IMG/VR virus record: IMGVR_UViG_3300033153_004364
Span: 1 to 39,579 of that record
Source: a virus
Length of the DNA: 39,579 nucleotides
Reading direction: 5' to 3' (one strand)
The notes beneath the pieces are model-generated. The model searched no databases. It worked only from the letters and a program-made list of their open reading frames with translations, and was not told the DNA's origin. The position numbers and the translations under genes were made by a program. Shown in pieces: positions 9,901 through 38,572 of the stretch; the first letter of the stretch is position 1, and each line of letters starts with the position of its first letter.

Positions 9901-12900
9901 TAGTAATAAAAATCATAGGAGAAGAAATCCCTGTAGTCTTACATGGTGTAGAAAAGGATATAACCTATAGTGAAGCATATCAATCACGACAAGGCATAAG
10001 TATGTCACCAGAGATCAGAGCAAGAAGTATTGTCAAGAGTTATGCAGAAGGGATGGCAGAGACATATAAACATCTTAAGCAATATGCAAAAACAGAGGAG
10101 CAACAAGAAACACTTGACACCATGTTTGCAACATATCGTGACGGGATGGTTAAGCGTAAGAAACTAATGCTTGCAAGAGACTCTCGAGTAATGAGTACAA
10201 TGATTACCGGTCCGGCAAACTTTCCTGTCAGAAGCAATCAGAAAAAAAGTGACTCTGCACATAAGGCACTAGAGGACTTAGTAAGCTATGATACTTTTAT
10301 GACTCAAAAGATCAAAAACAAACTCACAGGCAAAGAGGCTATTAAAAGTACAGACGAGGACGCGGTAGAGAAGTTAGAGAAAAAACTTAAAGCCTTGACA
10401 GAAGCGCAAGAGAAAATGAAAACTGCTAACAAGATCATAAGAAGCAAAAAGCTCACAGAGGAAGAGAAAATAAATCAACTTCAAAAAGAATTAAAGTTTA
10501 GTGAAAAAGATGCCAAAGAACTTGTATCTCCTTCACCACAATGGAGAACAAAGCCCGGATTTGCTTCATACTCTCTTACAAACAATAATGCTAAAATCAA
10601 AGCTACCAAACAAAGAATAGCGTCCATTGAGAAGATGCACGAAAGAGCAGAAACAATAGGCACCGAAGAGATCCTTTTTGATGGCGGTAAATTAGTACAA
10701 AACTATGAGATAGACAGGGTACAGTTTTTCTTTGATGGTAAACCAAGTGAAGAGATAAGGACCATGCTTAAAAAGAATGGCTTTAGATACAGTCCTAAAA
10801 ATAATCACGCATGGCAAAGACAGATTACACACCAGGCACAGTACAAAGCTAAAACAATATTAGCAGCACTCAAAGAGTTTAAGTATGAAGAGGCAGAAGC
10901 CGGAGAGGTAAGCAGAAAGTACACAGTAGAAGAACTAATAGAAAATCTTGAAACAGAGAGTTTTGAGATTAAAAACTTTACAGAGAATAAGATAGTCACA
11001 GCGTTGTTTAAATTCGGAGATAAGGGATATTCTTATAGTACCGGAGAGCATAGAGTAGTAATAGGCGAAACAGCAGGACTTACAAAAAAAGAAGTCATTA
11101 AAAGAATAGAGCATGAGATAGTACACTTTAAAACTATTGGCTTTATTGCAGAGAACAGACAAGATAAAAATGTAGTATATGTAGAGAGCGCACTACAGTA
11201 CATGAAAGAACATCAAACAGAAATACTTAACAAACTTAGTCCGGAAAGCAGAAAAAGAGTTAAGTATGTACTCACAAGGACAGCAGGTATAACCAGACTA
11301 GCCGAGGGGATAGCTGTATTGGGCGCAGAGAGCGAAACAGCTAACGACCTATACAAAGTATTGGGCAAAGAAAAAGGAAACCTTAGAGACGCAATAATAA
11401 CCCTTTTAAGAAGAATTAAAAACTTTATTATCAGAAGAAAAACTATTGCTGCACTACAAAAAGAAGATGTGAATTATGAGAAGTTGATAGCTGCAATTTC
11501 ACAGACCATTAAACAAGGAAGCATTTTAAACGAAATGGCCCCAGATGTAGCAAGAATGGCAAGAACTAAGGCAATTAAACAAATGCCTTCAAGAGCTAAA
11601 GAGGTTTCTCAATTTGATTACGGGGAGTTCAAATCAAAGATTGAAACTACCCTTGAAGCAAAAATGCCAAAGGTGGCTACAATAGCACATGTAAAAGGCA
11701 TGCTAAAGGATATCAACAAAGATGAAATGAAATGGAGCGGGCTAGAAGAGTATCTTAATAGTAAAAATGATAACGATAAGGTCATAAAAAAAGAAATACT
11801 TAGAGAGATAAAATTACCAGAACTAGAAAGCGTCACACTTGGAGGGAAAGGAACGAACACCGCTGACCTACCCAAAACAAAAGATGATTTTGAAATATAC
11901 GACACAGATGAAGGAACAACAAACTACCAAAAAGAACTAGGCGACACCACAATATACGCAGACGAAGATAGCGACGGGATATATATAGTTTTAATGGACA
12001 AGGATTATTATAAGACTGATCTTGGTAATTTCGAAACCTGGAACGACGCAATAGAAGGGATAAAAGACGCAGACGAAGAAGGAATGTTTAATACCCCAGG
12101 AAGCACCAAGTTTAAAAACTACACCACAGAAGGCATAGGCACAAACTACAGAGAAGAGTTGGTAGTGCTAACACCAGAGGCAAAAACACGCATTAAGAAA
12201 ATAGATAGTGAGTTAAAGGTTTTAAATAAAGAGAGGGATATTTTATTTAAAGATGAAAAAGGGGATTTTGATTTCTTTAGATCACTCGACAACAAAGAAA
12301 CACCAGAAGCAAAAGCAAGAATTACAAACGCAAATAAAATAGATGCACTAGAGAAAGAGAAAGAGTCTTTATTATTGGAAGAGGACACGCAATACAAATC
12401 CGGCCATTGGGACAAGCCAAACGTACTCTATCACACAAGAAAACAAGACGCTAAGATAGACGGCGATAATACTTTACTTGTAGAAGAGATACAGAGTGAT
12501 TGGCACCAAGAGGGGAGGAAGAAGGGGTATAAGTCAAATAGAATTACAGCAAATCAAGTTGAAGCAGTACACCACAAAGGAGAGCAAGACGGCTCCCCTG
12601 GGTATTGGGAGTCCAGGGTAAAAGAAACAGGAGAACTGATACTGCGAGATCGTGGAGGGATTACTAAAAAAGAAGCAATAAAAGAAGCAGTACATGTACA
12701 CAATTCTCTTATTGGAGAAAAAGGAGTACCCCAAGCACCATACGCAAAAACATGGCACGAAAAAGCCATGAAGGATATCATAGCCGAAGCAGTAGAGAAA
12801 AACTATGGCCGTGTGGCATGGGTAGCAGGGAAAGAACAGGCTGATAGGTATAGTTTGGCGAAACAAATAGATGAGTTGGATTTACACGAAAAAGAAGGTG

Positions 12901-15900
12901 TATTCACAATATATGCAAGAAAAGGTGGTCACTCTGTTTTTTCACAAGACGGACTATCTGAAAAGCAAATAGAGGACTATGTAGGGAAAGAAGCGGCAAG
13001 GAAACTATTAAAACAGAAGCCTTCTGAATATAATCAATTTGGATATTCAGCTAGAAGCTTAAGTGGTATGGAGTTAGAAGTCGGTGGCGAAGGCATGAAA
13101 ACCTTTTACGACTCAATGCTTCCAAAGTGGACAAACAAATACATTAAAAAATATGACTCAAAAGTAGAGGTAAAAAAACTTGATAACGGCCAAGAGGTTT
13201 GGAGTTTTGAAGTAACCCCAAAAATGAAAGAGCAGATCACTAAAGAAGGACAGCCTTTATATGGTTCTTCTTTGACACCATCTAGCACTATGCGCCCTGG
13301 GTTTATTCACCTGGGAGACATGGCAAACCTACCTTTTGAGCTTACAGGAATGATAAACAAAGCTAAAAACGTACTCGATACGGTAGTGTCTCAAAAAGTA
13401 ACAGGCAAAATAAAAGGAACCAAGCTTGATGATTTTATCAGAAGAATAGGAGGAAGCCAGGCAGGACTAGGATTATTAACTAGATCACAAGAGCAATCTT
13501 TTGTTAGACACTTTAGATCACTCCAAAGAAAACTTGCAAAGGCAGATATCTCCGCAGAAGAAAAAGCAAAGCTCATAGATGAGAGCCAAGGCAGATTAAC
13601 AGATGATGTATTCAACCAGGTATCGATACAATACTTAGAGAACCCAGAAGCAAGAGGGGTGATAGAGTCAGAGTTCCCAGAGTTAGCAGAAGAACTTAAA
13701 AGAGTAAGAGAATATATTAGCAACCTAAGTTTAGAAGCTATGGAGAGAGGGCTTATCCTACCAAGTCAATTTGAGAAATGGAAAGATCGATATCTATCAA
13801 GACTCTACCTTCTTACACAAAAGCCGCAAATGGCCTCGAGGTTAGCAAGTGGGATTAAGCTCTATGAGCAAAAGGCAGGCAGAAAGATAGATAGTATTGT
13901 CGATTACCTCATGGAGAACCCAGAAGAAGCTGCAAGATTAGGCGCAGTCCTTGATATCGATATGGTAGTTAAGACTACAATCGCTAAAACACAAGGGAAC
14001 ATAGGCCTAGAAGAGTTTATGCGCGGGATAACTGAACGGTCCGAGATCGTTTCAAGTAGGCACCTAGTAACTATTCCTTTCAGGGTTGAGAACTTACCTA
14101 CAAAGTTTAGTCCTATTTACGCAAAAGAAACTTTTATTCCTTATCTGCAAGACATGATAGCAAGACTTGATAAGTCCACGCACCTTTCAGCAGACATGCA
14201 GGAAATAGCCAGAGCAGAAGCGGGAATACTAAAATTAGAGAAGATCATCGAACTTGCAGCAGAGAGGGCGGAAGTAGCACAAAGTGAAATCAGTTTACTT
14301 GATGATAAAACAAAAGCTACTCTACCAAAAGATAAAAGATACGGTGTACTCTCTGGACTCCCGGTATCTAAAGACGTAGCAAGCTTAGTGATCTCTCAGT
14401 TTAATGTTGTGAACAACCCAGAAATGCTTACAGATGGCATAGATACTTACGGGGCTAAGTTCTTATCTTATTTCAAATGGGCCAAAGTACCGGCAAATGT
14501 ATTCGCGTACCCTAGAAACTTTGCGAGTAATGCTTTTCAATGGACTATGAGCGGGGCAGACCCGGCACAATTTGGGAAAGAATACGCTAGGGCAGCGTTC
14601 AGTATGTATAAGCGAGATAAATGGCACAGAATAGCAAGAGAGGCAGGAGTATTAGATACAAATGCGATATCAGCAGAAGTAAACAATGCCTTAAAGATTT
14701 GGTCAGAGGGGATAGAGGAGGGAAGCTTCTTAAAGAAAAAAACACTTGCAATCATGCAGAATGTAGGCGATTATTACGGGCTTATTGATGATGTAGCCAA
14801 AATAGCAAGAATACGCTACGCAGTAGAGAAAGAAGGGAAGAGTATAGAGGAAGCGGTAGAGATTGCACAGAACACACACTATGACTACTCTTTGACCTAC
14901 GATATCATTAGAGCTATGAGAGACCCTAATATGACAAGAGGGGCCATGCTTAAGATCATTGGTACAGTCTTTCCAACATATACACAAAAGACAGTAGCCT
15001 ATGTATATGATACTATGCTAGAAAGACCGGTTACTTTTGCATTAATGAACGCTGCTTTATATATGTTCTTGCATGGTGATGATGATGAAACCAGAGAGGA
15101 GATAGGAGCAGCAGACTATGACGAGACAATGGATAAGCTACCAGATTGGATAAAGTATAATCCGATGGCCAGAGTGGACATGAAGAGACTTAAAGATGGT
15201 ACGATTGATGTAACGATAGTTGATCTTGCTTATATTATCCCTTATGGAACCCTAAACACCGCAGCAAATAACCTGGTCATGGGAACGATAGAGGGTGATT
15301 TTAAAAGGATAGGTACCGGTATAGGGGGTATTGGATTAGGAGGTTCTCCTATTATGATGCTAGGAGACTTTATAGCGAACAAAAGTACATTTACAGGCAA
15401 AACGCTTTACTACGAACACGATACAATGCAATTCATTAAGGATACCGGAATGTATGGGTTTAAACAGTTAGGCCCGGGAACCTTTACAAAACTATACAGC
15501 CTATCAGAAACAAGGCACCCGATAGTTCCTAGACTTGTAGGGCTTAATACTTATGTATATAACGATACCGACCTAGAAAGCATGAGAGAGGGAGCAGCAA
15601 AAAGAGCCTCAACAGATGCAGCAATAAGAGGGAGTAAATATAAAAGACTCATTACAGACGCAAAAGAAGAGTATCGCAAAGGCAACATTACCAAGGAAGA
15701 GAGAGACGCAAAAATAAAGAAGTCACAGGCAGACGTAGAGCATTGGGAAGATTTAGGGCAAAAGGCATTTGACAAGATAAGCAGCAGATCAAAAGAGTTT
15801 AAAGCTTATAGTGCAGAAGCAAGAGACGTAAGACGTGCCTTTAGAGAGTACAACGCACTAAAGAGAAAGGCAAAGAAAGATAAAAGCTACGCGGAAGAGT

Positions 15901-16118
15901 TCTTTGACATAAAGAGCGACCCAGAGAAGATGCTAAAAGTTAGAAAAAAGAAGATCATCAACAAAGTAGGAAGAGAAACAAAATACATCAAAAAACAAAG
16001 AGAGAAGATCTTACTCAATGTCACAGGTGATGCAAAAAGAAAACAAATGATGAAGGTGCTTGATGAAAGAGAGCGAACAATGTATAATAGGGCTTACAAA
16101 GCCTTAACCAAACAATAA
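6915..16118 (+). CDS. Giant (3067-aa) polyvalent / ejection protein with zincin-like motif
   Basis: Nearly a quarter of the genome. The N-terminus has two copies of a 'VIDDSEI' motif. Residues ~180-375 have glycine-rich hydrophobic segments and 'VGEGIQETTQSGAEK', common in large phage internal proteins. Three 'SLTPEQ' repeats follow (405-455), then ~500 residues of charged coiled coil. A block at ~1267-1315 holds 'GKPSEEIRTMLKKNGFRYSP' and 'WQRQ'. HEIVH (1400-1404) is a zinc-peptidase-type HExxH. A polyvalent-protein block spans 1856-2086 ('VEEIQSDWH', 'RVAWVAGKEQADRY', 'EGMKTFYD'). A module near 2523-2550 ('ANVFAYPRNFASNAF') and a basic helical tail finish it. It follows two ejection genes and is probably injected. 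Individual activities are inferred. Confidence 0.8.
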   Translation: MTISDNEIQVIDDSEITVQETLISDSDIEVIDDSEISLAEEPSTLDKVKDFFTPEEEGPDLAQRDQDIRDAARVRTSKMAEEQGLIPEEESITARDVGTAYMKGSAEIAKGVGYLLEKAGAEKIGKVVKETGQEATDYWQEAFSPQAKKKQQETYTQTGTPDDIVSTLSYIANNPGKVMMDIAGSAPASGMGMAGGAVIGKAFTLIPKIGEGVAYAMGYGLGEGAISASMGAMETEEGILEMSHAKLMEHPEYRAVFKETRDIKKSKQLVASAAAGDRAAFNMLTTTILSSPMGYVFGPILKGKGNIADDFADSFAVAVVGEGIQETTQSGAEKIGENIAVAAHADPKIKALDDVVEAMVAGGIAGMGMGGGIATGAELHTAYTKSNQEKIRIKVMRDHALSFTFTSLTPEQQNLKAQLSEMQFTSLTPEQQEIKAGLENMVFDSLTPEQRTEVQAEEARIAGVQSSFSDLVKKYGDIQFPDEVIADIALQERILKEYETIEETAEEALGKKEPTYAEIVQEEKKEAKKEEAALEEVGDFFDAEGKKPDSASKRAAGRQAEKRELLEKQHGADEDIINEKMKVPQKKKILPTEEQQYKGMSKEDLAEIEAATKTEERFFLGGESPGAYKIAANQEGMNTPQSIRVIRESDGAEIIANKAGLQKYSEEEKAKRTQGEVKAAEEQKTFEEEIAEKDAKLSPEQFKEYETLNDTVTKYLSPKEKARLIELEEIREGKVPEPEPTKGLNKSEEYELTKLQEKDAEGELDIDEQMRMEDLEDKQLKAYKETKKEKLDKLPIPQEKEEVKKESIFKEKPIESEKDVVSTEKHIEKIKDDLTRVKSLGSRKKLFKHVKDMQAKVKTFKDNITDNYKNFTDEEKLANQDFLDSQFQERAHNISNDLGLFKDEMKKHIKFTHMGAGKNVVGIEIYGVEDNLQDYKQFLKEVEQAKAKRETTKERIHRRALEVKEEDKQALDKEKERRKKLKANPQEHTSAEAKEIVIKIIGEEIPVVLHGVEKDITYSEAYQSRQGISMSPEIRARSIVKSYAEGMAETYKHLKQYAKTEEQQETLDTMFATYRDGMVKRKKLMLARDSRVMSTMITGPANFPVRSNQKKSDSAHKALEDLVSYDTFMTQKIKNKLTGKEAIKSTDEDAVEKLEKKLKALTEAQEKMKTANKIIRSKKLTEEEKINQLQKELKFSEKDAKELVSPSPQWRTKPGFASYSLTNNNAKIKATKQRIASIEKMHERAETIGTEEILFDGGKLVQNYEIDRVQFFFDGKPSEEIRTMLKKNGFRYSPKNNHAWQRQITHQAQYKAKTILAALKEFKYEEAEAGEVSRKYTVEELIENLETESFEIKNFTENKIVTALFKFGDKGYSYSTGEHRVVIGETAGLTKKEVIKRIEHEIVHFKTIGFIAENRQDKNVVYVESALQYMKEHQTEILNKLSPESRKRVKYVLTRTAGITRLAEGIAVLGAESETANDLYKVLGKEKGNLRDAIITLLRRIKNFIIRRKTIAALQKEDVNYEKLIAAISQTIKQGSILNEMAPDVARMARTKAIKQMPSRAKEVSQFDYGEFKSKIETTLEAKMPKVATIAHVKGMLKDINKDEMKWSGLEEYLNSKNDNDKVIKKEILREIKLPELESVTLGGKGTNTADLPKTKDDFEIYDTDEGTTNYQKELGDTTIYADEDSDGIYIVLMDKDYYKTDLGNFETWNDAIEGIKDADEEGMFNTPGSTKFKNYTTEGIGTNYREELVVLTPEAKTRIKKIDSELKVLNKERDILFKDEKGDFDFFRSLDNKETPEAKARITNANKIDALEKEKESLLLEEDTQYKSGHWDKPNVLYHTRKQDAKIDGDNTLLVEEIQSDWHQEGRKKGYKSNRITANQVEAVHHKGEQDGSPGYWESRVKETGELILRDRGGITKKEAIKEAVHVHNSLIGEKGVPQAPYAKTWHEKAMKDIIAEAVEKNYGRVAWVAGKEQADRYSLAKQIDELDLHEKEGVFTIYARKGGHSVFSQDGLSEKQIEDYVGKEAARKLLKQKPSEYNQFGYSARSLSGMELEVGGEGMKTFYDSMLPKWTNKYIKKYDSKVEVKKLDNGQEVWSFEVTPKMKEQITKEGQPLYGSSLTPSSTMRPGFIHLGDMANLPFELTGMINKAKNVLDTVVSQKVTGKIKGTKLDDFIRRIGGSQAGLGLLTRSQEQSFVRHFRSLQRKLAKADISAEEKAKLIDESQGRLTDDVFNQVSIQYLENPEARGVIESEFPELAEELKRVREYISNLSLEAMERGLILPSQFEKWKDRYLSRLYLLTQKPQMASRLASGIKLYEQKAGRKIDSIVDYLMENPEEAARLGAVLDIDMVVKTTIAKTQGNIGLEEFMRGITERSEIVSSRHLVTIPFRVENLPTKFSPIYAKETFIPYLQDMIARLDKSTHLSADMQEIARAEAGILKLEKIIELAAERAEVAQSEISLLDDKTKATLPKDKRYGVLSGLPVSKDVASLVISQFNVVNNPEMLTDGIDTYGAKFLSYFKWAKVPANVFAYPRNFASNAFQWTMSGADPAQFGKEYARAAFSMYKRDKWHRIAREAGVLDTNAISAEVNNALKIWSEGIEEGSFLKKKTLAIMQNVGDYYGLIDDVAKIARIRYAVEKEGKSIEEAVEIAQNTHYDYSLTYDIIRAMRDPNMTRGAMLKIIGTVFPTYTQKTVAYVYDTMLERPVTFALMNAALYMFLHGDDDETREEIGAADYDETMDKLPDWIKYNPMARVDMKRLKDGTIDVTIVDLAYIIPYGTLNTAANNLVMGTIEGDFKRIGTGIGGIGLGGSPIMMLGDFIANKSTFTGKTLYYEHDTMQFIKDTGMYGFKQLGPGTFTKLYSLSETRHPIVPRLVGLNTYVYNDTDLESMREGAAKRASTDAAIRGSKYKRLITDAKEEYRKGNITKEERDAKIKKSQADVEHWEDLGQKAFDKISSRSKEFKAYSAEARDVRRAFREYNALKRKAKKDKSYAEEFFDIKSDPEKMLKVRKKKIINKVGRETKYIKKQREKILLNVTGDAKRKQMMKVLDERERTMYNRAYKALTKQ
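8127..8283 (+). repeat. Three tandem 'SLTPEQ' protein repeats in the giant gene
   Basis: Three successive copies encode F-(T/D)-SLTPEQ followed by charged helix-forming residues (KAQLSEMQ, KAGLENMV and a diverged third copy). The first begins at residue 405. The period is about 17 residues. Copies differ at synonymous positions (acc cca, aca cca), so the duplication is old or kept by protein-level selection. The repeats join the hydrophobic N-terminal region to the coiled-coil region. Confidence 0.7.
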
Positions 16119-21859: not shown

Positions 21860-21958
21860 ATGAAGTTGTTTTTGAGTAAGTATGTAGCCAAGAGTAAGTA
21901 TGCCACGTTATCAAGTGGTCAAAAGAGAGTAAAGAGATTAATAGGAGAAATAAAATGA
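21860..21958 (+). CDS. 32-aa basic leader ORF (mosaic family, copy A)
   Basis: A small basic protein in ATGA overlap with the PP-loop ATPase gene. Its C-terminus (QKRVKRLIGEIK) matches that of the 23-aa ORF at 22776 (EQRVKRLKEME), and the underlying DNA is also similar. No strong ribosome site of its own is visible. It may be a coupling peptide rather than a functional protein. Confidence 0.4.
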   Translation: MKLFLSKYVAKSKYATLSSGQKRVKRLIGEIK

Positions 21959-22764
21959 TAGAAAGAGAAGAAGGAGTGACATATATAGCGACAATAAGTG
22001 GGGGGAAAGATAGTGTTACGATGTGTGATTTACTTATCAGAAAAGGGTACCCTGTGGACTATGTAGTATTTAATGATACTCTTGATGAGTTTAAAGAAAT
22101 GTATAAATATCTTGATAAGGTCGAAGACTATTTTAAACAAAGATACAAAAGAACTATTACAAGATTAAAGCCGTTAAAAGATTATGACAGAGATTACATC
22201 TTCGGAGTAATATCAGATAAAAGAGATGCAAAATTTGCTGGAATGACAAGAGGATTACCAAGTGCAAATATGAGTTTTTGTGGATGGAGGAGAGACAGTA
22301 AAATAGTACCTTTTGAGAAATGGAAAAAACAATTCGCCAAAACAAAAACTTATATAGGAATAACAATGGACGAAACTCACAGAGCCAACAGAGAAGATGA
22401 TAATTTTCTTTACCCATTGATTGATAATTTTAAAATGAGTGAACGTGATTGCAAAAAATATCTTATAGATAGAGATATGGAAAATCCACTCTATAGACAC
22501 TTTAATAGAACGGGTTGTGCAAAGTGCCAATATCAAAGCGAGGACTCTTGGTTCAAGGTTTGGAAATACTATCCAGAGGTATGGGCAGAGGTTAAAGATT
22601 ATGAAGCCAAGATAAATAAACTTGATAATGTAGTAGGTACACATTGGTTTACAAAATATAGAACCTGCACAGACATGGAAGCGAATTTTATGCAGGCGGA
22701 TAAGCAAGGCAGTTTATTTGATTTCTCAGACGAACCATTAAAAGACTGTTTTTGCAAAATATAA
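21955..22764 (+). CDS. PAPS-reductase-family / DndC-like PP-loop ATPase
   Basis: A 269-aa protein of the adenine nucleotide alpha-hydrolase (PP-loop) superfamily. The PP-loop SGGKDS is at 15-20, and 'NDTLDEFKEMYKYLDKVEDY' forms the second conserved helix. Cysteines at 109 (SFCGW), 188 and 191 (GCAKC) recall PAPS reductase and DndC, which use them for catalysis or an Fe-S cluster. Such enzymes activate a substrate with ATP, in sulfate reduction or in DNA phosphorothioation. No dndD/E partners are present. Its neighbours are two DNA methylases, so a nucleic-acid modification role is plausible but unproven. Confidence 0.75.
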   Translation: MIEREEGVTYIATISGGKDSVTMCDLLIRKGYPVDYVVFNDTLDEFKEMYKYLDKVEDYFKQRYKRTITRLKPLKDYDRDYIFGVISDKRDAKFAGMTRGLPSANMSFCGWRRDSKIVPFEKWKKQFAKTKTYIGITMDETHRANREDDNFLYPLIDNFKMSERDCKKYLIDRDMENPLYRHFNRTGCAKCQYQSEDSWFKVWKYYPEVWAEVKDYEAKINKLDNVVGTHWFTKYRTCTDMEANFMQADKQGSLFDFSDEPLKDCFCKI

Positions 22765-30393: not shown

Positions 30394-31813
30394 TATAGCA
30401 GCACAAGCACTTATAGACGTTGACATACTTGCAAGAGTATCACCAAGAGACCTACATACTGACTATGTAAGGTGGACTCCTACAGGGCAGCAAAAGAAAG
30501 CGCTAAGAAGTGCTGCTAAGTTTACACTCTTCGGAGGAGCCAGAGGAGGCGGGAAGTCAGACGGTTCTATCCATTGGCTCACAAAGAGAGTTAAAAACCC
30601 TAATATGTTAGGCCTAGTGTTAAGAAGGAACGCGAAAGACCTTATCGAGTTTATCAATAGGGCTAACAAAGTGTTTAAGAGACTAGGAGCAATAAAGACA
30701 GGAAGCCCGCAGAGTGGAGGGGTTAAGTTTGTCTTTCCTTCTGGTGCAGAGATATACACAGGCCACTTAGCAAACGAAGACTCTTTTGAGGCATACCAGG
30801 GTTGGAATATTACCGATATGGTTATAGAAGAGCTTACACACATACCTACACTCATATTATTTCAAAGCCTTCTGGGTTCGCTTAGATCAATAGACCCAAC
30901 ATTACCCCCACGGTTTTTCGCAACAACAAACCCAACAAACATAGGGTTTGAGTGGGTTAAGGCTTATTGGAGAATAGGAGATATCCCAGACGAGCAATAT
31001 TTCACCGAAGAAGGCATAACAAAGATATACATACCTGCAGGAGTATACGATAACCCTCACCTACTCAAAGGTGACCCAGAATATGTTAAATACCTTGAAA
31101 GCTTACCGGTGGACCTTAGGGAAAGATGGTTGAAAGGGTCCTGGGAAGATATTGTTAGCGACGCTCAAATATACGGTATCGATATGCTTAACGCTAAGAA
31201 ACAGGGGCGCATAACAAGTGTACCGGTTGAAGCAGCACTTAGAACCTTTGTAGCGTTTGACCTCGGGCTTAAAGACTTAATGGTGTATTGGATATTACAG
31301 ATACACGGCAGAGAGAAGAGACTCGTAAAGTGTTATGGAGAGAGGAATAAGCCTATCAAGCACTATTCTGACAAGCTTAGAGAGTTTGAACAGGAGACAG
31401 GAGCCACAATAGAGGAAGTATTCTTGCCGCATGATGCAGAAGTTAGATCAATGATACATGATGATCTAATGACCCGCAAGGAGAAGATGGAAGAATTGGG
31501 GTGGAGTTGTACGGTCCTGGGTAGATTGCCTAAGCCAGACAGTATAGAGAATGGACGAACATTAATACAAAGTGCCTATTTTGACAAAAAAGGGTGCAAG
31601 GACGGGCTTAGAGCATTAAGAAACTATAGTAAAGAGTTTGATGAGAAGGCGAACAGGTATAAAGACAAGCCTTTGCATGATTGGTGTGCAGATTGGACCG
31701 ACTGTATTCAGTACATGGGAACAGCACTCCCAGACATAGAAGGCGGGCAAGTGATCAACATAGACGATATCGCAAGAAAGATAAGAATGGCAAGAGGCGG
31801 TAATATGATATAA
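30386..31813 (+). CDS. Terminase large subunit
   Basis: A 475-aa packaging motor and nuclease. The ATPase part has Walker A GGARGGGKS (50-58), Walker B MVIEEL (145-150) and coupling motif ATTNP (179-183). The RNase H-like nuclease has Asp292 in 'VAFDLGLKD', Asp350 in 'LPHDAEV' and an Asp pair at 436/439 in 'CADWTDC'. It drives headful packaging and cuts the concatemer. It overlaps the small subunit by eight bases. The end of the gene holds the promoter before the portal gene. Confidence 0.95.
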   Translation: MSSIAAQALIDVDILARVSPRDLHTDYVRWTPTGQQKKALRSAAKFTLFGGARGGGKSDGSIHWLTKRVKNPNMLGLVLRRNAKDLIEFINRANKVFKRLGAIKTGSPQSGGVKFVFPSGAEIYTGHLANEDSFEAYQGWNITDMVIEELTHIPTLILFQSLLGSLRSIDPTLPPRFFATTNPTNIGFEWVKAYWRIGDIPDEQYFTEEGITKIYIPAGVYDNPHLLKGDPEYVKYLESLPVDLRERWLKGSWEDIVSDAQIYGIDMLNAKKQGRITSVPVEAALRTFVAFDLGLKDLMVYWILQIHGREKRLVKCYGERNKPIKHYSDKLREFEQETGATIEEVFLPHDAEVRSMIHDDLMTRKEKMEELGWSCTVLGRLPKPDSIENGRTLIQSAYFDKKGCKDGLRALRNYSKEFDEKANRYKDKPLHDWCADWTDCIQYMGTALPDIEGGQVINIDDIARKIRMARGGNMI

Positions 31814-31814
31814 T
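31806..31814 (+). promoter_or_regulatory. Promoter before portal gene, extended -10 (TGATATAAT)
   Basis: TGnTATAAT at the end of TerL. The expected start is near 31821, with the portal gene at 31844. The 20-base context at 31801-31820 differs in two places from that at 1061-1080. Confidence 0.6.
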
Positions 31815-31843
31815 AGGCGCAAATCTTTTAAAAGGCGGGTAGC

Positions 31844-33913
31844 ATGAACAATAAACACAAACCGATACAGTCAGAACCTATTAAAGTAAGAGACGGAGAT
31901 ACAGAAGAAGCCATACTCAAAGAAGCACAGGATAGGGCAACGATAGCCTATCAAGGGTGGAAAGAGAACTTTGAAGTATCTAGGGAGGACGTAACCTTCA
32001 TAGCCGGTGTTCAATGGAGCAAGAAAGAGAAGGACGCTAGAACAGCAGAAGGCAAGATCTCTTTAATCCTAAACAAGTTACCCCAATTCGTGAACAGAGT
32101 CATAGGCGCGCAACGAAAGAACGTACAATCTATCAAAGTATCCCCAAGGTCAAGTGCCAAAGGCAAAGAGAGAACACTTACAACAGAAAAAGGCGAAGAG
32201 CTTAAAGCTTCACGCGTAGTTTCAGACTTCATACGCAACATAGAATATCAGTCAAACGCTAAAGGTGCCTATAAGATGGCCTTTAAACATGCTCTCGAGG
32301 GTGGGTTTGGTTGGCTAAGAGTCTATACAGCTTATCAAGATGATGGCTTTGATATGGATATCAAGATAAAAGGTATTCGTAACAGGTATAGCGTTTATAT
32401 TGACCCAAGAGCAACCGAGGACGATTACAGCGACATGAACTTCGCGTTCATTACTGAGACTATGACTAACGCAGAATTTAACAAGAGATATCCTTCTGCA
32501 AGCAAAGGAGGGCTACAGATCACCAATGATATGACAAGCACCTTCTGGTATGGTACTGATACCGTAACAGTAGCGGAGTATTTCAGAAGAGAACCTATCA
32601 AGAAGAAGATAGCCCTTCTATCTAATGGTGAAATAGTAGACGCTAAAGATTTAGAAGATGATGTGATCATGGAAAAACTTGAAGATATGGGGATAACAGT
32701 AGTCAAAACGCGAACCATTAACAGCTATAAGGTTATCTGGTGCAAGATATCAGGCATGAACATACTAGAAAAAGAGAGAGAGTTTCCAACAACCACTATC
32801 CCTGTCGTCCCGGTATTAGGTAGAGAGATAGACTACGACAACGAAAGAGCATTTAGAGGGCTTACCTATGATGCTAAAGACGGTCAAAGAATGTTTAATG
32901 CTACACGATCTTCTGCTATGGAGAGAGTGAACCTAGTTACCAAGACACCATACATAGGCACAGCAGACGCAGTTAAAGGGTATGAGAGAGAATGGGCAAC
33001 AGCAAATACAGAGAATAGAGGTATTCTTGTCCACAACAAAGGAACAAACGCGCCACAACGTCAGCCTATGGCAGCAGTACCAACGGGTGAAATGTCAATC
33101 TCTAATGAACTAAACAATGATATCCAACAATCAATAGGTATCTATGATGCTTCACTAGGGGCAAAGAGTAATGAGACAAGCGGAAAAGCTATACAGGCCA
33201 GACAAGGGGAAGCAGACACAGGAACCTTTGAATACATAGACAATCTTGGTACAGCCATAAGAAGAGTAGGTATTCTTTGTGTAGAGCTTATCCCTAAAAT
33301 ATATGATACTAACAGAGTGATACAGCTTAGAAATCAAGACGGTACAGATGATACAGTAGAAATCAATAAAGCTGAACAGGTTGGGGGAGAAGAGGAAGTC
33401 ACAAATGACCTGGACGGCTTAAAGTATGATGTAGTAGTAGAGACAGGCGCAAGTTACGCAACCAAACAAGAAGAGAGCGCAGACCAGATACTAGACCTTA
33501 TGAGAGTAAATCCAAAAGTAGCAGAAGTAGGAAGCGATATCCTCATTAAAAACCTTGACTTTGCAGATAGTGACGTGCTAGCAGACAGAATGAAAAAGAC
33601 ACTACCTGCCAACGTACTAAGTAAAGAGGACCAGAAGGAAATCTCCAAAGACATGCCAGAACCACAACCAAGCCCAGAACAGATCAAAGCCAATGCAGAT
33701 ATAAAGCTTAAAGAAATGGATATGCAAATGAAAGATACAGAGCTTAAAGCAGGTACAGAGATCGAAGCAATTAAGCTAGAAACAGCACGCGTAAACCTAG
33801 CAGCCAAAAAGTTAGACCTTGCAGGGAAACAGAAGGAGAATGAAGAGAAGCGTAAAGATGGTGTAGTGAATACTGTGATAGATCAGATTAAGAAAAGTAA
33901 GGCGGCCAAGTAA
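31844..33913 (+). CDS. P22-like portal protein
   Basis: A 689-aa portal subunit (P22 gp1 is 725 aa). It has the P22 portal pattern: an N-terminal 'FIAGVQWSKKEKDARTAEGK' segment, 'LNKLPQFVNRVIGAQRKN', 'HALEGGFGWLRVYTAY' and 'NNDIQQSIGIYDASLGAKSN'. A long helical C-terminus forms the barrel. It makes the dodecameric channel for DNA entry and exit. The C-terminal ~90 residues are charged coiled coil. Only a weak ribosome site (AAAAGGCGGG) is seen. Confidence 0.92.
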   Translation: MNNKHKPIQSEPIKVRDGDTEEAILKEAQDRATIAYQGWKENFEVSREDVTFIAGVQWSKKEKDARTAEGKISLILNKLPQFVNRVIGAQRKNVQSIKVSPRSSAKGKERTLTTEKGEELKASRVVSDFIRNIEYQSNAKGAYKMAFKHALEGGFGWLRVYTAYQDDGFDMDIKIKGIRNRYSVYIDPRATEDDYSDMNFAFITETMTNAEFNKRYPSASKGGLQITNDMTSTFWYGTDTVTVAEYFRREPIKKKIALLSNGEIVDAKDLEDDVIMEKLEDMGITVVKTRTINSYKVIWCKISGMNILEKEREFPTTTIPVVPVLGREIDYDNERAFRGLTYDAKDGQRMFNATRSSAMERVNLVTKTPYIGTADAVKGYEREWATANTENRGILVHNKGTNAPQRQPMAAVPTGEMSISNELNNDIQQSIGIYDASLGAKSNETSGKAIQARQGEADTGTFEYIDNLGTAIRRVGILCVELIPKIYDTNRVIQLRNQDGTDDTVEINKAEQVGGEEEVTNDLDGLKYDVVVETGASYATKQEESADQILDLMRVNPKVAEVGSDILIKNLDFADSDVLADRMKKTLPANVLSKEDQKEISKDMPEPQPSPEQIKANADIKLKEMDMQMKDTELKAGTEIEAIKLETARVNLAAKKLDLAGKQKENEEKRKDGVVNTVIDQIKKSKAAK

Positions 33914-33923
33914 GGCCCTCTTG

Positions 33924-34064
33924 CTACAATGAAAGTAACGTGCCTACTCCAATAAGAAGGAGAGAGAAGAGGCCCACCAGAACATAGAGCATAAAAGCCC
34001 ACAACAAAGCAAAAGAAAACCCTCGTATCACTCCATACAAAAAAAGAATGATCTCTTTGATCAT
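33924..34064 (-). CDS. 46-aa hydrophobic membrane peptide (antisense cassette)
   Basis: On the minus strand, in ATGA overlap downstream of the ribbon-helix-helix gene. It begins MIKEI and is then almost wholly hydrophobic, with two likely spans ('LFLYGVIRGFSFALLWAFML' and 'YVLVGLFSLLLIGVGTLLSL') and one Arg between them. Such a peptide could depolarise the membrane or block DNA entry. Together with the regulator upstream it resembles a toxin-antitoxin or superinfection-exclusion cassette. It fills the gap after the portal gene, eleven bases from its stop. Confidence 0.6.
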   Translation of the reverse strand: MIKEIILFLYGVIRGFSFALLWAFMLYVLVGLFSLLLIGVGTLLSL

Positions 34065-34174
34065 AAGTAAGCCTCCACAAGTTCACTAACTATTTCACCT
34101 ATTGTCATATCTCTATCAACCGAAGCTTGCTTTAGTCTTTTCCAAATATCATACCCTATTGATATAGTTTTCAT
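34061..34174 (-). CDS. 37-aa Arc/CopG-like ribbon-helix-helix protein (antisense cassette)
   Basis: The sequence 'MKTISIGYDIWKRLKQASVD' starts with a short beta-strand (KTISIGYD), then helix A. 'TIGEIVSELVEAYL' forms the second helix, the classic Arc/CopG layout in a minimal version. The ATG at 34174 is four bases from AGGGAG; another ATG at 34177 is too close. It is driven from a promoter with a -35, unlike the rest of the phage, whose spacer is a palindrome. It probably represses its own promoter. Confidence 0.65.
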   Translation of the reverse strand: MKTISIGYDIWKRLKQASVDRDMTIGEIVSELVEAYL

Positions 34175-34207
34175 CATACTCCCTTTGTAGTAATGTAAGA
34201 TTACAGA

Positions 34208-34237
34208 ATTATAACACACATTATATAATTTGTGCAA
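34208..34237 (-). promoter_or_regulatory. Minus-strand promoter (TTGCAC - 18 bp - TATAAT, extended)
   Basis: Read on the minus strand, the -35 TTGCAC is at 34237-34232 and the -10 TATAAT at 34213-34208, preceded by TGT to give TGnTATAAT. The spacer is 18 bases. It is the only promoter in the window with both boxes. Transcription would start near 34201 and reach the ATG at 34174. Confidence 0.65.
34215..34234. promoter_or_regulatory. Palindromic operator inside the minus-strand promoter
   Basis: A 20-base palindrome with nine of ten base pairs symmetric (CACA.ATTATATAAT.TGTG). It covers the promoter spacer and part of the -35, a position where binding of a repressor would block polymerase. 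Ribbon-helix-helix proteins bind such inverted repeats as dimers or tetramers. On the + strand the same palindrome contains a TATAAT that could act as a divergent -10. Confidence 0.55.
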
Positions 34238-34252
34238 GCAAGTTTCTTGCTT
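34236..34252. repeat. 7-bp perfect inverted repeat beside the promoter
   Basis: AAGCAAG and CTTGCTT separated by TTT, touching the -35. It could be a second operator or, as RNA, a small hairpin in the leader of the scaffold gene starting at 34279. Confidence 0.55.
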
Positions 34253-34278
34253 AAATAACGTAATCCCGAAGGATAAGA

Positions 34279-35160
34279 ATGAAAACAGAACAAAAACCAG
34301 AAGTTAAGCCCGCAGAAGCAGAGAGTACAATCGTAGTATCTTCAAGTGAAGATGATGCAAAGACACTAGGCGGAGTAGGTAAAACAGAAGAGCAAGAAGC
34401 AGCACAAAAGCCAAAGGAAGAAAAGCCAGAGGACAACGCGCAGGAAAACGGACATAGTAAACCTCGTAAAAAAAATAGTGCCAAAGAGCGTATTCAAGGA
34501 CTCGTAAGAGACAGTAAAGACAAAGATGATCGTATCGCAGAACTAGAAGAAAAGCTTGAAGAACGTAAGCCAGAGAAGGCTAACGAAGATGCGAAAGAGC
34601 CGAACATAGATAACTTTGATACTTATGCAGAGTATGAAGAGGCACTTGCAGCACACGAAACTAAAGAAGCACAAGCACCAGAGACTAAGAAAGCAGCAGA
34701 CAATCAGGAAGCACCTAAAGAGGTGGAGAAGAGATTGAATGATGCTTATAAAGACTTAGACCCTCTTTTAGATGATGCGAGAGATACACACGAGGACTTT
34801 AACGATATTGTAGGCAACAATGAGCTACAGATCAGTATCGAACTTATGGAAACACTTACCTCTTTCGATGATAACGCAGGAGAAATGCTTTACGAACTTG
34901 CCCAGGACCCAGATAGACTATCGGAAATTTCGGGAATGAGTGAGAAAGAGCAGCTCAAGGAACTAATCAAAGTCGAGGACAACTTAGGGAAACCAAAGAA
35001 AGCCTCTGTTAAAAAGCACAGTAACGCACCAGAGCCTATTGAAGTTCTTGACGGTGGTAGTGATAAGGTTAAAAGCCTAGATGATGAAAATCTTAGCTTT
35101 GAAGAACACCAAAAACTACTAAATAGCCGGAAAGCAACGTCACGCGGTGGGTACTTATAG
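34279..35160 (+). CDS. P22-like scaffolding protein
   Basis: A 293-aa, very acidic, helical protein rich in Glu, Lys and Ala, directly before the coat gene (P22 gp8 is 303 aa). The C-terminal region ('PIEVLDGGSDKVKSL') and a basic patch around residues 56-75 ('KPRKKNSAKERIQGLVRDSK') are typical. It directs assembly of the procapsid and exits before packaging. AAGGA lies upstream of the ATG. Confidence 0.82.
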   Translation: MKTEQKPEVKPAEAESTIVVSSSEDDAKTLGGVGKTEEQEAAQKPKEEKPEDNAQENGHSKPRKKNSAKERIQGLVRDSKDKDDRIAELEEKLEERKPEKANEDAKEPNIDNFDTYAEYEEALAAHETKEAQAPETKKAADNQEAPKEVEKRLNDAYKDLDPLLDDARDTHEDFNDIVGNNELQISIELMETLTSFDDNAGEMLYELAQDPDRLSEISGMSEKEQLKELIKVEDNLGKPKKASVKKHSNAPEPIEVLDGGSDKVKSLDDENLSFEEHQKLLNSRKATSRGGYL

Positions 35161-35191
35161 GCTTTTTATTTTTTTACAATAGGAGAAAATT

Positions 35192-36451
35192 ATGCTTTTA
35201 CATAATGGTACAGCCAACAGTTTACTAACTACAGACAAAGTAGCCAATGACATGTTGGCCAGATGGCAGAACAATTTAGTTCTTGCAAAATCAATCAACA
35301 GAGATCTCGAAGGACAATTCGGGGAAATCGGTGACACGATTAGTGTTAAATTGCCTAACAATGTAATCGTCAATAACGGTTCAACAGCAACAACAACAAC
35401 ACCACTCAATGACAAATCAGTTTCTTTGGTAGTTGATACACAGAAAAACATCAAGTTTAGTTGGGGAATGAAAGATAAATCTTTATCAATCCTTCAATTC
35501 GGGGAAAGATATCTTGAACCTGCAGCTAACAGACTTGCAAATGAGTTTGATATCTCTATTGCGGGAGTTATGAGAGACGCTTACTTCCAATTTGGTACAG
35601 TAGGTAGTGCATTGTCAAGTAATGATTGTACTTTGGGTGCAGCATACGCACAAGACGTAGCAATCCCTACAGATGGTCTCACAAGATACATTTTAAATAC
35701 TATTGATAATGCAAACATTTCAAATGGTATGAAGAGTGTTTATAACGATGCAATCGTTAAAGAGGCTATCCAAAAAGGTTATGCAGGTGAGTTAGACGGA
35801 TTTGATAAGTTCTTCTCTCAAAACATCATCAAGCATACAGTAGGTGACCAGACAGGCAACGAAGTAGTAGCTACAGAGCTTAGTGATGGTTCAACGCTTG
35901 CAGTTAAAACAAGTCAAGCAGGTGCGTTCCTTAGAGGTGACAGATTTACTATTGCAGGGGTTAACGAGATCAACCCAATCACTAAAGCGGTTACAGGTAG
36001 ACTCCAGGTATTTACTGTAGTTACTCCGGTAGGCGCTACAGGCTTGACAGGTGCAACAGGGTCAATCGGTATCTCTCCGGCGATCAATGATGGTACAGGT
36101 ACAACACTTGACGGTGACGGTAACTCTATCACTACTGCTATGGACCAATCTGTAAGCGGTAAAGCGTTAGTTGATGCAGTAATCACGGTAATTGGTGATG
36201 CAAACGGTGTATATCGTGAAAACTACCTCATGCACAAGCACGCGGTTACAGCAGCATGTGTGTTTATGGAAATCCCTTCAAGTGGACACGGCCACAGAGC
36301 ACATGACAAACAAACAGGTCTAGCTCTCAATGCAGTTGAATACTTCAACGGTGATGATTACAAGAACGCGTTAAGACTCGATATCCTTTATGGTGTTAAG
36401 TTGGTAAGACCAGACTTGATCTTCAGAGCAACAAACCAGAAAATCGGATAA
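35192..36451 (+). CDS. P22-like major capsid (coat) protein
   Basis: A 419-aa coat protein (P22 gp5 is 430 aa). The N-terminus ('TTDKVANDMLARWQNNLVLA') and 'VNRD'-like block lead to the HK97-fold. The middle has an inserted beta-domain ('RGDRFTIAGVNEINPITKAV', then 'GRLQVFTVV') matching the I-domain of P22-family coats. The end is 'FRATNQKIG'. The gene has a perfect AGGAG site and a T-rich leader (GCTTTTTATTTTTTTAC), and codon choice is more selective than in its neighbours, all fitting high expression. Confidence 0.92.
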   Translation: MLLHNGTANSLLTTDKVANDMLARWQNNLVLAKSINRDLEGQFGEIGDTISVKLPNNVIVNNGSTATTTTPLNDKSVSLVVDTQKNIKFSWGMKDKSLSILQFGERYLEPAANRLANEFDISIAGVMRDAYFQFGTVGSALSSNDCTLGAAYAQDVAIPTDGLTRYILNTIDNANISNGMKSVYNDAIVKEAIQKGYAGELDGFDKFFSQNIIKHTVGDQTGNEVVATELSDGSTLAVKTSQAGAFLRGDRFTIAGVNEINPITKAVTGRLQVFTVVTPVGATGLTGATGSIGISPAINDGTGTTLDGDGNSITTAMDQSVSGKALVDAVITVIGDANGVYRENYLMHKHAVTAACVFMEIPSSGHGHRAHDKQTGLALNAVEYFNGDDYKNALRLDILYGVKLVRPDLIFRATNQKIG

Positions 36452-36458
36452 GTTAATA

Positions 36459-36481
36459 GAGTAGAGTGAAAATCTCTACTC
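36459..36481 (+). terminator. Hairpin after coat gene (attenuator-like)
   Basis: GAGTAGAG (36459-36466) pairs with CTCTACTC (36474-36481), 8 bp, 7-base loop. It begins eight bases after the coat stop and is followed by ACTTTAGTTT, not a clean T run. It could be a partial terminator or 3'-end protector that keeps the coat mRNA more abundant than those downstream. Confidence 0.55.
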
Positions 36482-36514
36482 ACTTTAGTTTAAACCAACA
36501 CACAAAGGAATACC

Positions 36515-36754
36515 ATGAAAGCAGGCCAAGGCGATACGTTACAATGTTTGGAAGTCAAAGAGGGTAGAGTTAATTTAACAAGCGGTACATATAAAAATGT
36601 AAATGTTGCACATTGTGTAGAGGATGGCAATATAGTAGTAACGTGGTTATCTGGGGAAACAGACACTATAGCTATGGTTACGGGAGACGATATCTCTTTT
36701 GATTGCACAAGCGTAGAAGTCTCTACAGGTAAATTCCACTTATGTAGCATGTAA
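36515..36754 (+). CDS. Small beta-rich virion protein (decoration candidate)
   Basis: A 79-aa protein of alternating beta-strands ('GDTLQCLEVKEGRVNLTSGT', 'NIVVTWLSGETDTIAMVTGD') directly after the coat gene. Position and size fit a head decoration protein, but no family is recognised. AAAGGAA is seen five bases upstream. Confidence 0.5.
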   Translation: MKAGQGDTLQCLEVKEGRVNLTSGTYKNVNVAHCVEDGNIVVTWLSGETDTIAMVTGDDISFDCTSVEVSTGKFHLCSM

Positions 36755-36763
36755 GGACACATT

Positions 36764-38572
36764 ATGAGATTTGGATTAGATTTCGGGTTTAGTGGACTTT
36801 CGGTTGCAGCAGCCCAAGCCCTAGCCCTCATAGAATACACTTGGAGTGCAGACAGCTACGCATTAACTCCTCATGATACAGAAACAACCACAGACACACA
36901 CGGTTCTGAAACATCAGCAAGTGGGACGGCATCAGCAATTTCAAATCTAGCAGGAGCCTATCCTTGGGAGTGTTTTAATAAATCTTTTACAGGAGGAGAT
37001 GGATGGATAGCAGCTAGTGGGACAACAACAGGTTGGATAAAATATGCTTTCTCATCCCCTATACAATTAAACACATTTAGATTTTACTCTCCTCTTGCTA
37101 CAGATGGAACAATTAGGGCAGATAGACAACCTAAAGACTTTACTATACAAGTATCAAATGACGGAACTAATTGGACTACTGTTAAAACGGTTACCAATGC
37201 AACCAAGTTAACCACTCCACAATGGAGTGAACTATATACAATAAGTATACCAGAAAACTCTATGTATATGAAAATGGACATAACCGCAAATCATGGCGAT
37301 GCTACCTATCTATCAATGCAAGAACTTGAGTTAAATTACCAAGAAGTAAATAATGAAGTAATAGTGACAAATCAAGGCTCATCAGGTGCAACAAACAACC
37401 TGCAACTGAACACGGCAGAAAATATAGAAGTATCAAGCGGACAAGAGTTCGATGTACCCGTAGAAGCTGATAGTGCTTGTGTGATGTATCACAGCATTAC
37501 GGCAAAATCAATGACATACGTTACTTCTATATCTTCCCCATCACATACTATGCCCCAAGATACAATAGGGGTAATCGCGACTTTAAAAACAGAGCCAGAC
37601 ACAACCGACAAAACAAGACTTGACGCTGAACCTTGGCAGATACTTAATCTATGGTTTGAAGAAACAACCAATCTTACGAGTATTGTTAAGGCAGATATAC
37701 AACATCTTTATAATCCTAATAGTTTGCAGGGAAAATACTTAATAGATTTAACTGTTGCAAAAGGGAGCAATTTGGTTACTAATGGGGACTTCCCAACCGA
37801 TGTAAGCGGTTGGACGGTACTTTTAGCTTCCTTTACATGGCACTCATCAGAAAGAGCAGAAACAGGCACTAATGGGCTTGCTTATCAAAGCATCTTGGAG
37901 ATAGGTAAAATATGTGAAGTTTCGTTAGATGTGGAAATAATATCAGGAGCAGTAAAAGTACAAATGGGCGGCTCTGGGGGACTTTCAATTCCTCTAGTTG
38001 AGGGCAACAACCCCTTCTTATCGGCTGTGCCAGCAGGAACATCTGACTCAGATAGATTTTATATTGGTAGAAACTCATCTGGTGCAGCTTATTTCGATAA
38101 TGTTTCAGTTAGGGAAATAGCAGCGATTGAAATCCCTAACTACGCAGCCTCAATGTATGAGAATGTGGACTTTAATAAAGTTGGTATTCAGACAACAATG
38201 CTTGATATAGATGGTACAGGTAGAACAACTGCTATGGTTTATGATGAGGAAGGGTTTTGGGCTAAAGGCTTTGGAAATACACAATTCAACCCATCATCAG
38301 ACGCTAGTGAATGGTGGCTTGAAGAGATTATAGACGGAGTGGTTTATCAGCATAAGTATGACGGTGTAAACCTCACAACCTATACAGATAACTCTTCGGG
38401 TGGGGCAGGTGCTCACAGTCCAGAAAATGCAGACTATCTACAGGGTAAAGGTGTTTATCCTAAAGTAGCGGCAGACCCATACACGACTTATACACTTAGT
38501 CATTTTATGTGGTGGACGGGTGACGGATACACAGGCTACAACCAATCAGATAGATATACTGAAATATCATAA
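36764..38572 (+). CDS. Adhesin with F5/8 type C and CBM-like domains
   Basis: A 602-aa beta-rich protein. Residues ~60-190 resemble an F5/8 type C (discoidin, CBM32-like) domain: 'PWECFNKSFTGGDGWIA', 'GWIKYAFSSPIQLNTFRFYS', 'DFTIQVSNDGTNWTTV'. Residues ~335-452 form a second jelly-roll ('NLVTNGDFPTDVSGW', 'YFDNVSVREI') of the CBM4/9/22 type. The tail holds 'DASEWWLEEIIDG' and Tyr/Gly-rich sequence. It probably binds host glycans. It lies after the coat gene rather than with the other fibres, so a head fibre is possible. No glycosidase motif was recognised. Confidence 0.72.
   Translation: MRFGLDFGFSGLSVAAAQALALIEYTWSADSYALTPHDTETTTDTHGSETSASGTASAISNLAGAYPWECFNKSFTGGDGWIAASGTTTGWIKYAFSSPIQLNTFRFYSPLATDGTIRADRQPKDFTIQVSNDGTNWTTVKTVTNATKLTTPQWSELYTISIPENSMYMKMDITANHGDATYLSMQELELNYQEVNNEVIVTNQGSSGATNNLQLNTAENIEVSSGQEFDVPVEADSACVMYHSITAKSMTYVTSISSPSHTMPQDTIGVIATLKTEPDTTDKTRLDAEPWQILNLWFEETTNLTSIVKADIQHLYNPNSLQGKYLIDLTVAKGSNLVTNGDFPTDVSGWTVLLASFTWHSSERAETGTNGLAYQSILEIGKICEVSLDVEIISGAVKVQMGGSGGLSIPLVEGNNPFLSAVPAGTSDSDRFYIGRNSSGAAYFDNVSVREIAAIEIPNYAASMYENVDFNKVGIQTTMLDIDGTGRTTAMVYDEEGFWAKGFGNTQFNPSSDASEWWLEEIIDGVVYQHKYDGVNLTTYTDNSSGGAGAHSPENADYLQGKGVYPKVAADPYTTYTLSHFMWWTGDGYTGYNQSDRYTEIS

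Follow-up and report, generated by a model that had tools for sequence, protein, structure and literature searches.

Why would two tiny genes run against the flow of all others between the portal and scaffold genes of a P22-type phage? The question is raised by IMG/VR virus record IMGVR_UViG_3300033153_004364, all 39,579 nt of which were analysed (the window), and by an earlier note, made from the sequence alone, which saw in this pair a self-regulated toxin-antitoxin, immunity or superinfection-exclusion unit. The answer towards which we lean, on balance, is that the cassette consists of an autorepressing ribbon-helix-helix (RHH) regulator, which possibly also gates scaffold and coat expression, and an accessory peptide, both lying in a variable reverse-strand accessory island similar to immI of phage P22. 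The cassette would then be the window's version of a swappable island found in one clade of P22-type podophages.

The reverse-strand cassette and its RHH gene

The gap is 365 bp long and separates a P22-type portal gene (31844-33913; Pfam P22_portal, E 2e-161) from a scaffold gene (34279-35160; PHROG head scaffolding protein, E 2.3e-36), with a P22-type coat gene next downstream. Both of the overlapping open reading frames (ORFs) that the earlier note had described are present on the minus strand, one encoding a 37-amino-acid RHH protein and the other a 46-amino-acid hydrophobic peptide. The stop codon of the first and the start codon of the second overlap as ATGA (34064-34061), giving two coupled small genes with the regulator first. 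A purpose-written hexamer-based caller applied to the whole window called 48 genes, 47 on the plus strand and a single one, the RHH ORF, on the minus strand, in agreement with the claim that the cassette opposes every other gene; the peptide ORF was not called. The GC skew reverses over the cassette and is clearly negative (-0.25). The coding features and their ribosome-binding sequences are as follows.

34061-34177, minus strand: predicted minimal DNA-binding protein of the RHH type (CopG/Arc/MatP_C-like), from Pfam, the gene call, AlphaFold2, Foldseek and VIA-align, and the homologue in L100
33924-34064, minus strand: 46-amino-acid hydrophobic peptide, predicted as one long helix, from the ORF, a chance test of hydrophobicity and AlphaFold2
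34179-34183, minus strand: Shine-Dalgarno-like GGGAG ahead of the RHH gene, from the sequence
34072-34076, minus strand: Shine-Dalgarno-like GGAGG ahead of the peptide, within the RHH gene, from the sequence

The first ORF encodes an RHH protein. Its start codons are a tandem ATGATG at 34177 and 34174, giving 38 or 37 amino acids, of which the second is the likelier start as the better fit to the GGGAG at 34183-34179. MatP_C was the only Pfam family to reach its cut-off (24 bits at a curated cut-off of 24, E 5e-5), and the NCBIfam and PDB sequence matches, to MatP and a CopG-family protein, agree weakly. The ORF had a hexamer score of 0.298 per codon, where the 99th centile among 199 further short ORFs was 0.160; synonymous codon use was uninformative (P 0.23). 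From a four-row alignment AlphaFold2 predicted a strand-helix-helix protomer (predicted local distance difference test, pLDDT, 91.8) with extended residues 1-7 and helices 8-20 and 25-36, the domain spanning residues 1-37 of 37. The top Foldseek rows for this model were MatP, CopG, StnY, PutA and other RHH proteins, none of which reached E 0.001, as may be expectable for so short a protein. The best VIA-align match was the RHH of PutA (Z 6.3, root-mean-square deviation (rmsd) 0.8 A across all 37 residues). The Arc/CopG-like character suggested by the earlier note is supported. Arc and Mnt are both RHH proteins, and CopG is a plasmid copy-number repressor.

The resemblance to CopG (2cpg) lies in the predicted fold (Foldseek probability 0.99, TM to query 0.83; VIA-align Z 5.8, rmsd 1.3 over 37 residues), whereas identity is only 17%, the window protein has 37 residues against 45 in the CopG chain, and its gene lies in a phage late block. 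MatP shares the C-terminal RHH domain, with the Pfam match at cut-off and 30% identity in the fold alignment, but the window protein lacks the remainder of MatP (134-150 residues in solved chains), and nothing leads one to expect that it organises the chromosome.

An ORF at the same site and on the same strand in L100, a contig of the same clade, is 54% identical to the window RHH. Across 37 codons the two genes differ 13 times at the first position, 7 times at the second and 25 times at the third. There were 17 amino-acid changes compared with a mean of 25.8 expected, none of 5000 simulations being as low, and 80% of the simulations gained a stop. This third-position bias and the smaller number of amino-acid changes than simulated mark the RHH as a protein maintained under purifying selection. 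Elsewhere in phages, only weak Phabio matches were found (E 0.7), and the plasmid matches, to staphylococcal replication-associated proteins of RHH-like type, were weak as well (best E 6e-3).

The same observations bear on the proposal of an addiction pair, in which an RHH antitoxin is encoded first and a membrane toxin second. As in type II toxin-antitoxin systems with an RHH antitoxin, a small regulator comes first and the second gene is tightly coupled to it by ATGA, and the second genes appear exchangeable in three of the four RHH-bearing clade members. However, since the RHH domain fills the whole 37-residue protein in the model, there is no neutralising, toxin-binding tail; the second gene gave no toxin-family match in Pfam, NCBIfam or PADLOC at E up to 1, L100 keeps the RHH alone, and there is no sign of lysogeny. 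The toxin-antitoxin proposal of the earlier note was thus rejected as a first choice, and we regard it as improbable.

A variable island in one clade of P22-type phages

Close relatives were obtained by a coat search (66-71% coat identity), and a portal search added two clade contigs. The clade set comprised eight members, namely the window, L097, L098, L100, L101, L102, L104 and L105. Left out were L099, whose contig begins inside coat, the duplicates L103 (of L102), L106 (of L097) and L109 (of L101), and the outer relatives L107 and L108, with portals of 44% and 39% identity and no insert. Six of the eight (the window, L098, L100, L101, L102 and L105) have reverse-strand genes in the portal-scaffold gap, all opposite to scaffold, while L097 and L104 have no reverse gene there. 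An RHH is present in four (the window, L098, L100 and L101), and L105 instead has a 173-amino-acid sigma-70 region 4 protein (5995-5474, minus strand, G008; PF04545, E 1e-15) that could redirect host RNA polymerase.

The content of the island varies across the clade. L100 has a 42-amino-acid RHH with no partner, and L098 has a 46-amino-acid RHH and a partner of at least 125 amino acids. L101 has a 76-amino-acid gene, a 48-amino-acid RHH and a gene of 91-99 amino acids, and L102 a 101-amino-acid gene. Beside its sigma-70 region 4 protein, L105 has a 139-amino-acid protein, the first 31 residues of which match the L102 gene at 68%. In the window, L098 and L101 an unrelated partner follows directly after the RHH (-4, 0 and +1 nt). 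Of the pair, for which the earlier note had advised a search in related phages, the RHH was found at the same site and strand in L100, but the peptide in the window only. The RHH profile detected a single copy in each of four records and none in the other three of the seven searched. The island gene is the sole minus-strand gene called in the window and in G006, and G005 and G008 have another minus-strand block elsewhere.

Outside the clade, 14 regions were compared from those named phages whose portals are most similar (Vibrio, Shewanella, Thalassomonas and others). The portal-scaffold spacing is -4 to 92 bp in 12 of them, the regions L013 and L015 have plus-strand genes in the gap, and a reverse RHH was absent from the gap in all 14. 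Small plus-strand genes were often found in the gap in 80 distant viral contigs, again with no reverse RHH. The premise that P22-type phages normally have no extra genes here is thus too strong, since plus-strand inserts are common in distant relatives; what sets this clade apart from the other loci examined is that the genes are reversed and include a regulator. The RHH profile, applied to ORFs of at least 25 amino acids in 95 loci (L002-L096) plus the window and in 43 loci (L103-L145), recovered only the window RHH and L109, everything else having E 3.7 or more. A viral scan with a two-row RHH alignment returned the L100 contig only, and a nucleotide search of 31500-37000 in the named phages gave no match. 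Bacterial genome contigs scanned with the joined RHH and peptide query and with the coat alignment also gave no match, although these scans speak for close relatives only. A literature search of titles and abstract openings brought up no account of a reversed RHH island at the portal-scaffold junction.

The closest parallel we can offer is P22 immI (mnt-arc-ant, with sieA nearby). PMC8022706 describes immI as a variable stretch of the late operon that has regulators of its own, mnt and arc. The window cassette, too, sets an RHH regulator within a variable part of the late block. Unlike immI, which lies between genes 16 and 9, the window island lies between portal and scaffold and has a single RHH of 37 amino acids; moreover, the antirepressor family (ant) was not found among the island genes and partners scanned, nor integrase or HTH_3 in the five records searched. 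This would be a second site, besides immI, for a swappable regulatory island within the structural block of P22-type phages, and a gene as tiny as the RHH is easily missed by annotation.

Such variability would also be in keeping with a simple moron, that is, an autoregulated pair in the gap without effect on scaffold or coat, in which the RHH limits the peptide and the peptide guards the infected cell from other phages. The cassette has its own promoter-like sequence, the cargo is variable with unrelated partner genes, and the island is absent from two of the eight clade members. However, L100 keeps the RHH without a partner, so that the regulator has been kept without cargo, and five of the eight members have a regulator, either an RHH or a sigma region 4 protein. 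Furthermore, the overlapping divergent promoters make some cross-control likely, and no terminator belonging to the cassette was found. We therefore consider the moron rather doubtful, and rank it second to autorepression with possible gating and ahead of a chance peptide frame and then a toxin-antitoxin pair.

Overlapping putative promoters and a candidate operator

Three overlapping elements lie between the RHH gene and scaffold.

34208-34236, minus strand: extended -10 promoter-like sequence of the cassette, TGCACA - 17 nt - TATAAT with TGT preceding the hexamer (10/12 plus TG; best score in the window)
34215-34234, unstranded: 20-bp imperfect palindrome, candidate RHH operator (shuffle P 0.03)
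34200-34229, plus strand: candidate scaffold-coat promoter, ATTACA - 18 nt - TATAAT (position matching the clade-wide extended -10)

No other promoter-like site found on either strand of the window scores as high as the cassette promoter, in accord with the view that the pair has its own promoter and a self-regulated look. TGnTATAAT occurs seven times in the window, twice on the minus strand, and six of the seven are intergenic though called genes cover 94%; it is therefore probably a promoter type used by this phage. TGnTATAAT promoters are a habit of Campylobacterota. On the plus strand, the candidate scaffold-coat promoter, with its TATAAT 55 nt ahead of the scaffold start codon, overlaps the cassette promoter, and a plus-strand extended -10 is found at -48 to -62 upstream of scaffold in six of the eight clade members. 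The statistic for the latter (3e-13) is descriptive, the pattern being post hoc and related sequences having been treated as independent. The palindrome fills the spacer of the minus-strand promoter and covers the plus-strand -10 hexamer, and no second site was found in the window within 3 mismatches. We propose it as the RHH operator.

From these elements we infer that host RNA polymerase, starting at the extended -10 promoter, would transcribe the island separately from the late genes, and that an RHH oligomer would switch its own promoter off by binding the palindrome that separates the -35 box from the -10 box. This palindrome is shared with the scaffold-coat promoter-like element of the opposite strand, which the RHH would therefore repress as well. 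RHH made early could then delay scaffold and coat expression until it became diluted. Should the RHH indeed gate both genes, capsid assembly would have a simple timer, in phages in which no lysogeny genes were found. The very small protein, candidate operator and two overlapping promoters make a testable set. A more general switch for capsid timing is put forward only tentatively: a reverse-strand regulator, RHH in some members and a sigma region 4 protein in another, would have been inserted next to the scaffold-coat promoter, the overlapping divergent promoters and their common operator would keep both genes off until the early regulator became diluted, and sister phages would exchange the regulator module.

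Several findings weigh against autorepression and gating by a shared island regulator. The palindrome is weak (shuffle P 0.03), and none of the other RHH members has a significant palindrome at the site (P 0.38 in L098, 0.955 in L100 and 0.26 in L101); a shared operator across these members was looked for and not found. The window's copy of the scaffold promoter lacks the TG, L100 has no good plus-strand promoter at the scaffold position, and the pattern itself was defined after looking. The RHH subtype of the window and L100 shows only a weak resemblance to that of L098 and L101 (hhalign probability 64%, E 6.8e-5), and the two may represent separate acquisitions. The L098, L100 and L101 proteins scanned singly had no RHH match in Pfam, and the L098 contig begins within the island, so that its place after portal is inferred. 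No terminator was found downstream of the cassette, and its transcript would therefore run antisense into portal. To these must be added the missing codon support and homologues of the peptide, given below. A profile of all four RHH rows searched against the PDB returned no RHH, the best match being an unrelated chain (E 0.11).

A hairpin behind the scaffold promoter, noted by eye only, is not put forward as a feature. In L101, at about 3957-4055, inspection by eye showed an almost perfect inverted repeat (about 19 nt) on either side of the reverse-operon promoter region.

The hydrophobic peptide, the host and further features of the window

The evidence that the second ORF is a gene is weaker than that for the RHH. 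The peptide has 3 charged residues in 46 and a mean Kyte-Doolittle value of 1.95, and its single-sequence AlphaFold2 model is one helix over residues 2-45 (pLDDT 97.8). The peptide would be translationally coupled to the RHH. It probably serves as an accessory with an effect on the host envelope, such as the exclusion of other phages. A holin was considered and rejected, the endolysin gene (539-1063) being far away. No Pfam, NCBIfam or PADLOC match was found at E up to 1, and none in PHROGs better than E 0.57.

It is also conceivable that only the RHH is a gene and that the 46-amino-acid ORF behind it is open by chance, which would be compatible with either autorepression or a moron. No homologue of the peptide was found in any of six clade records, in the named phages, in the PDB or in the close-match scans. 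The hexamer score (-0.555) is like that of non-coding ORFs (median -0.52), synonymous codon use is uninformative (P 0.30), and the RHH stands alone in L100. An open frame of this length from the same ATG is expected in 12% of cases by chance and is not rare, but one both open and equally hydrophobic had a frequency of 0.00105 in 20,000 Markov resamplings, and GGAGG (34076-34072) sits 7 nt before the ATGA-coupled start. On this evidence a chance frame seems unlikely.

The host is probably a member of the Campylobacterota, nearest to Sulfurovum and Nitrosophilus, judging from gene relationships: the best plasmid matches of the Bet/RecT protein were from Nitrosophilus and Campylobacter, and the SSB is 67% identical to that of Sulfurovum mangrovi, where the gene has an rpsF-ssb-rpsR setting. 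Neither integrase PF00589 nor HTH_3 was found in any of five records, which may be incomplete (controls were found in 14 of 14), and a temperate life is not indicated. The prophage-like state envisaged in the earlier note was accordingly not upheld, and expression of the cassette linked to lysogeny was rejected.

Three further features of the window were observed. At 18108-17990 on the minus strand there is a putative small RNA with a TGGTATAAT promoter, two strong hairpins (minimum free energy -37.9 kcal/mol, z -9.3) and a T-run terminator, for which no Rfam match and no relative in G005-G008 were found. A single ORF of 3067 amino acids (6915-16118) makes up 23% of the window, and its 55%-identical matches lie within one 9.9-kb ORF in G006 and one 5.7-kb ORF in G008. 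Finally, a phosphoadenosine phosphosulfate reductase-like gene (21955-22764; PHROG 424, E 1.9e-35) adjoins DNA methyltransferase genes and has a relative in G007 at 37%.
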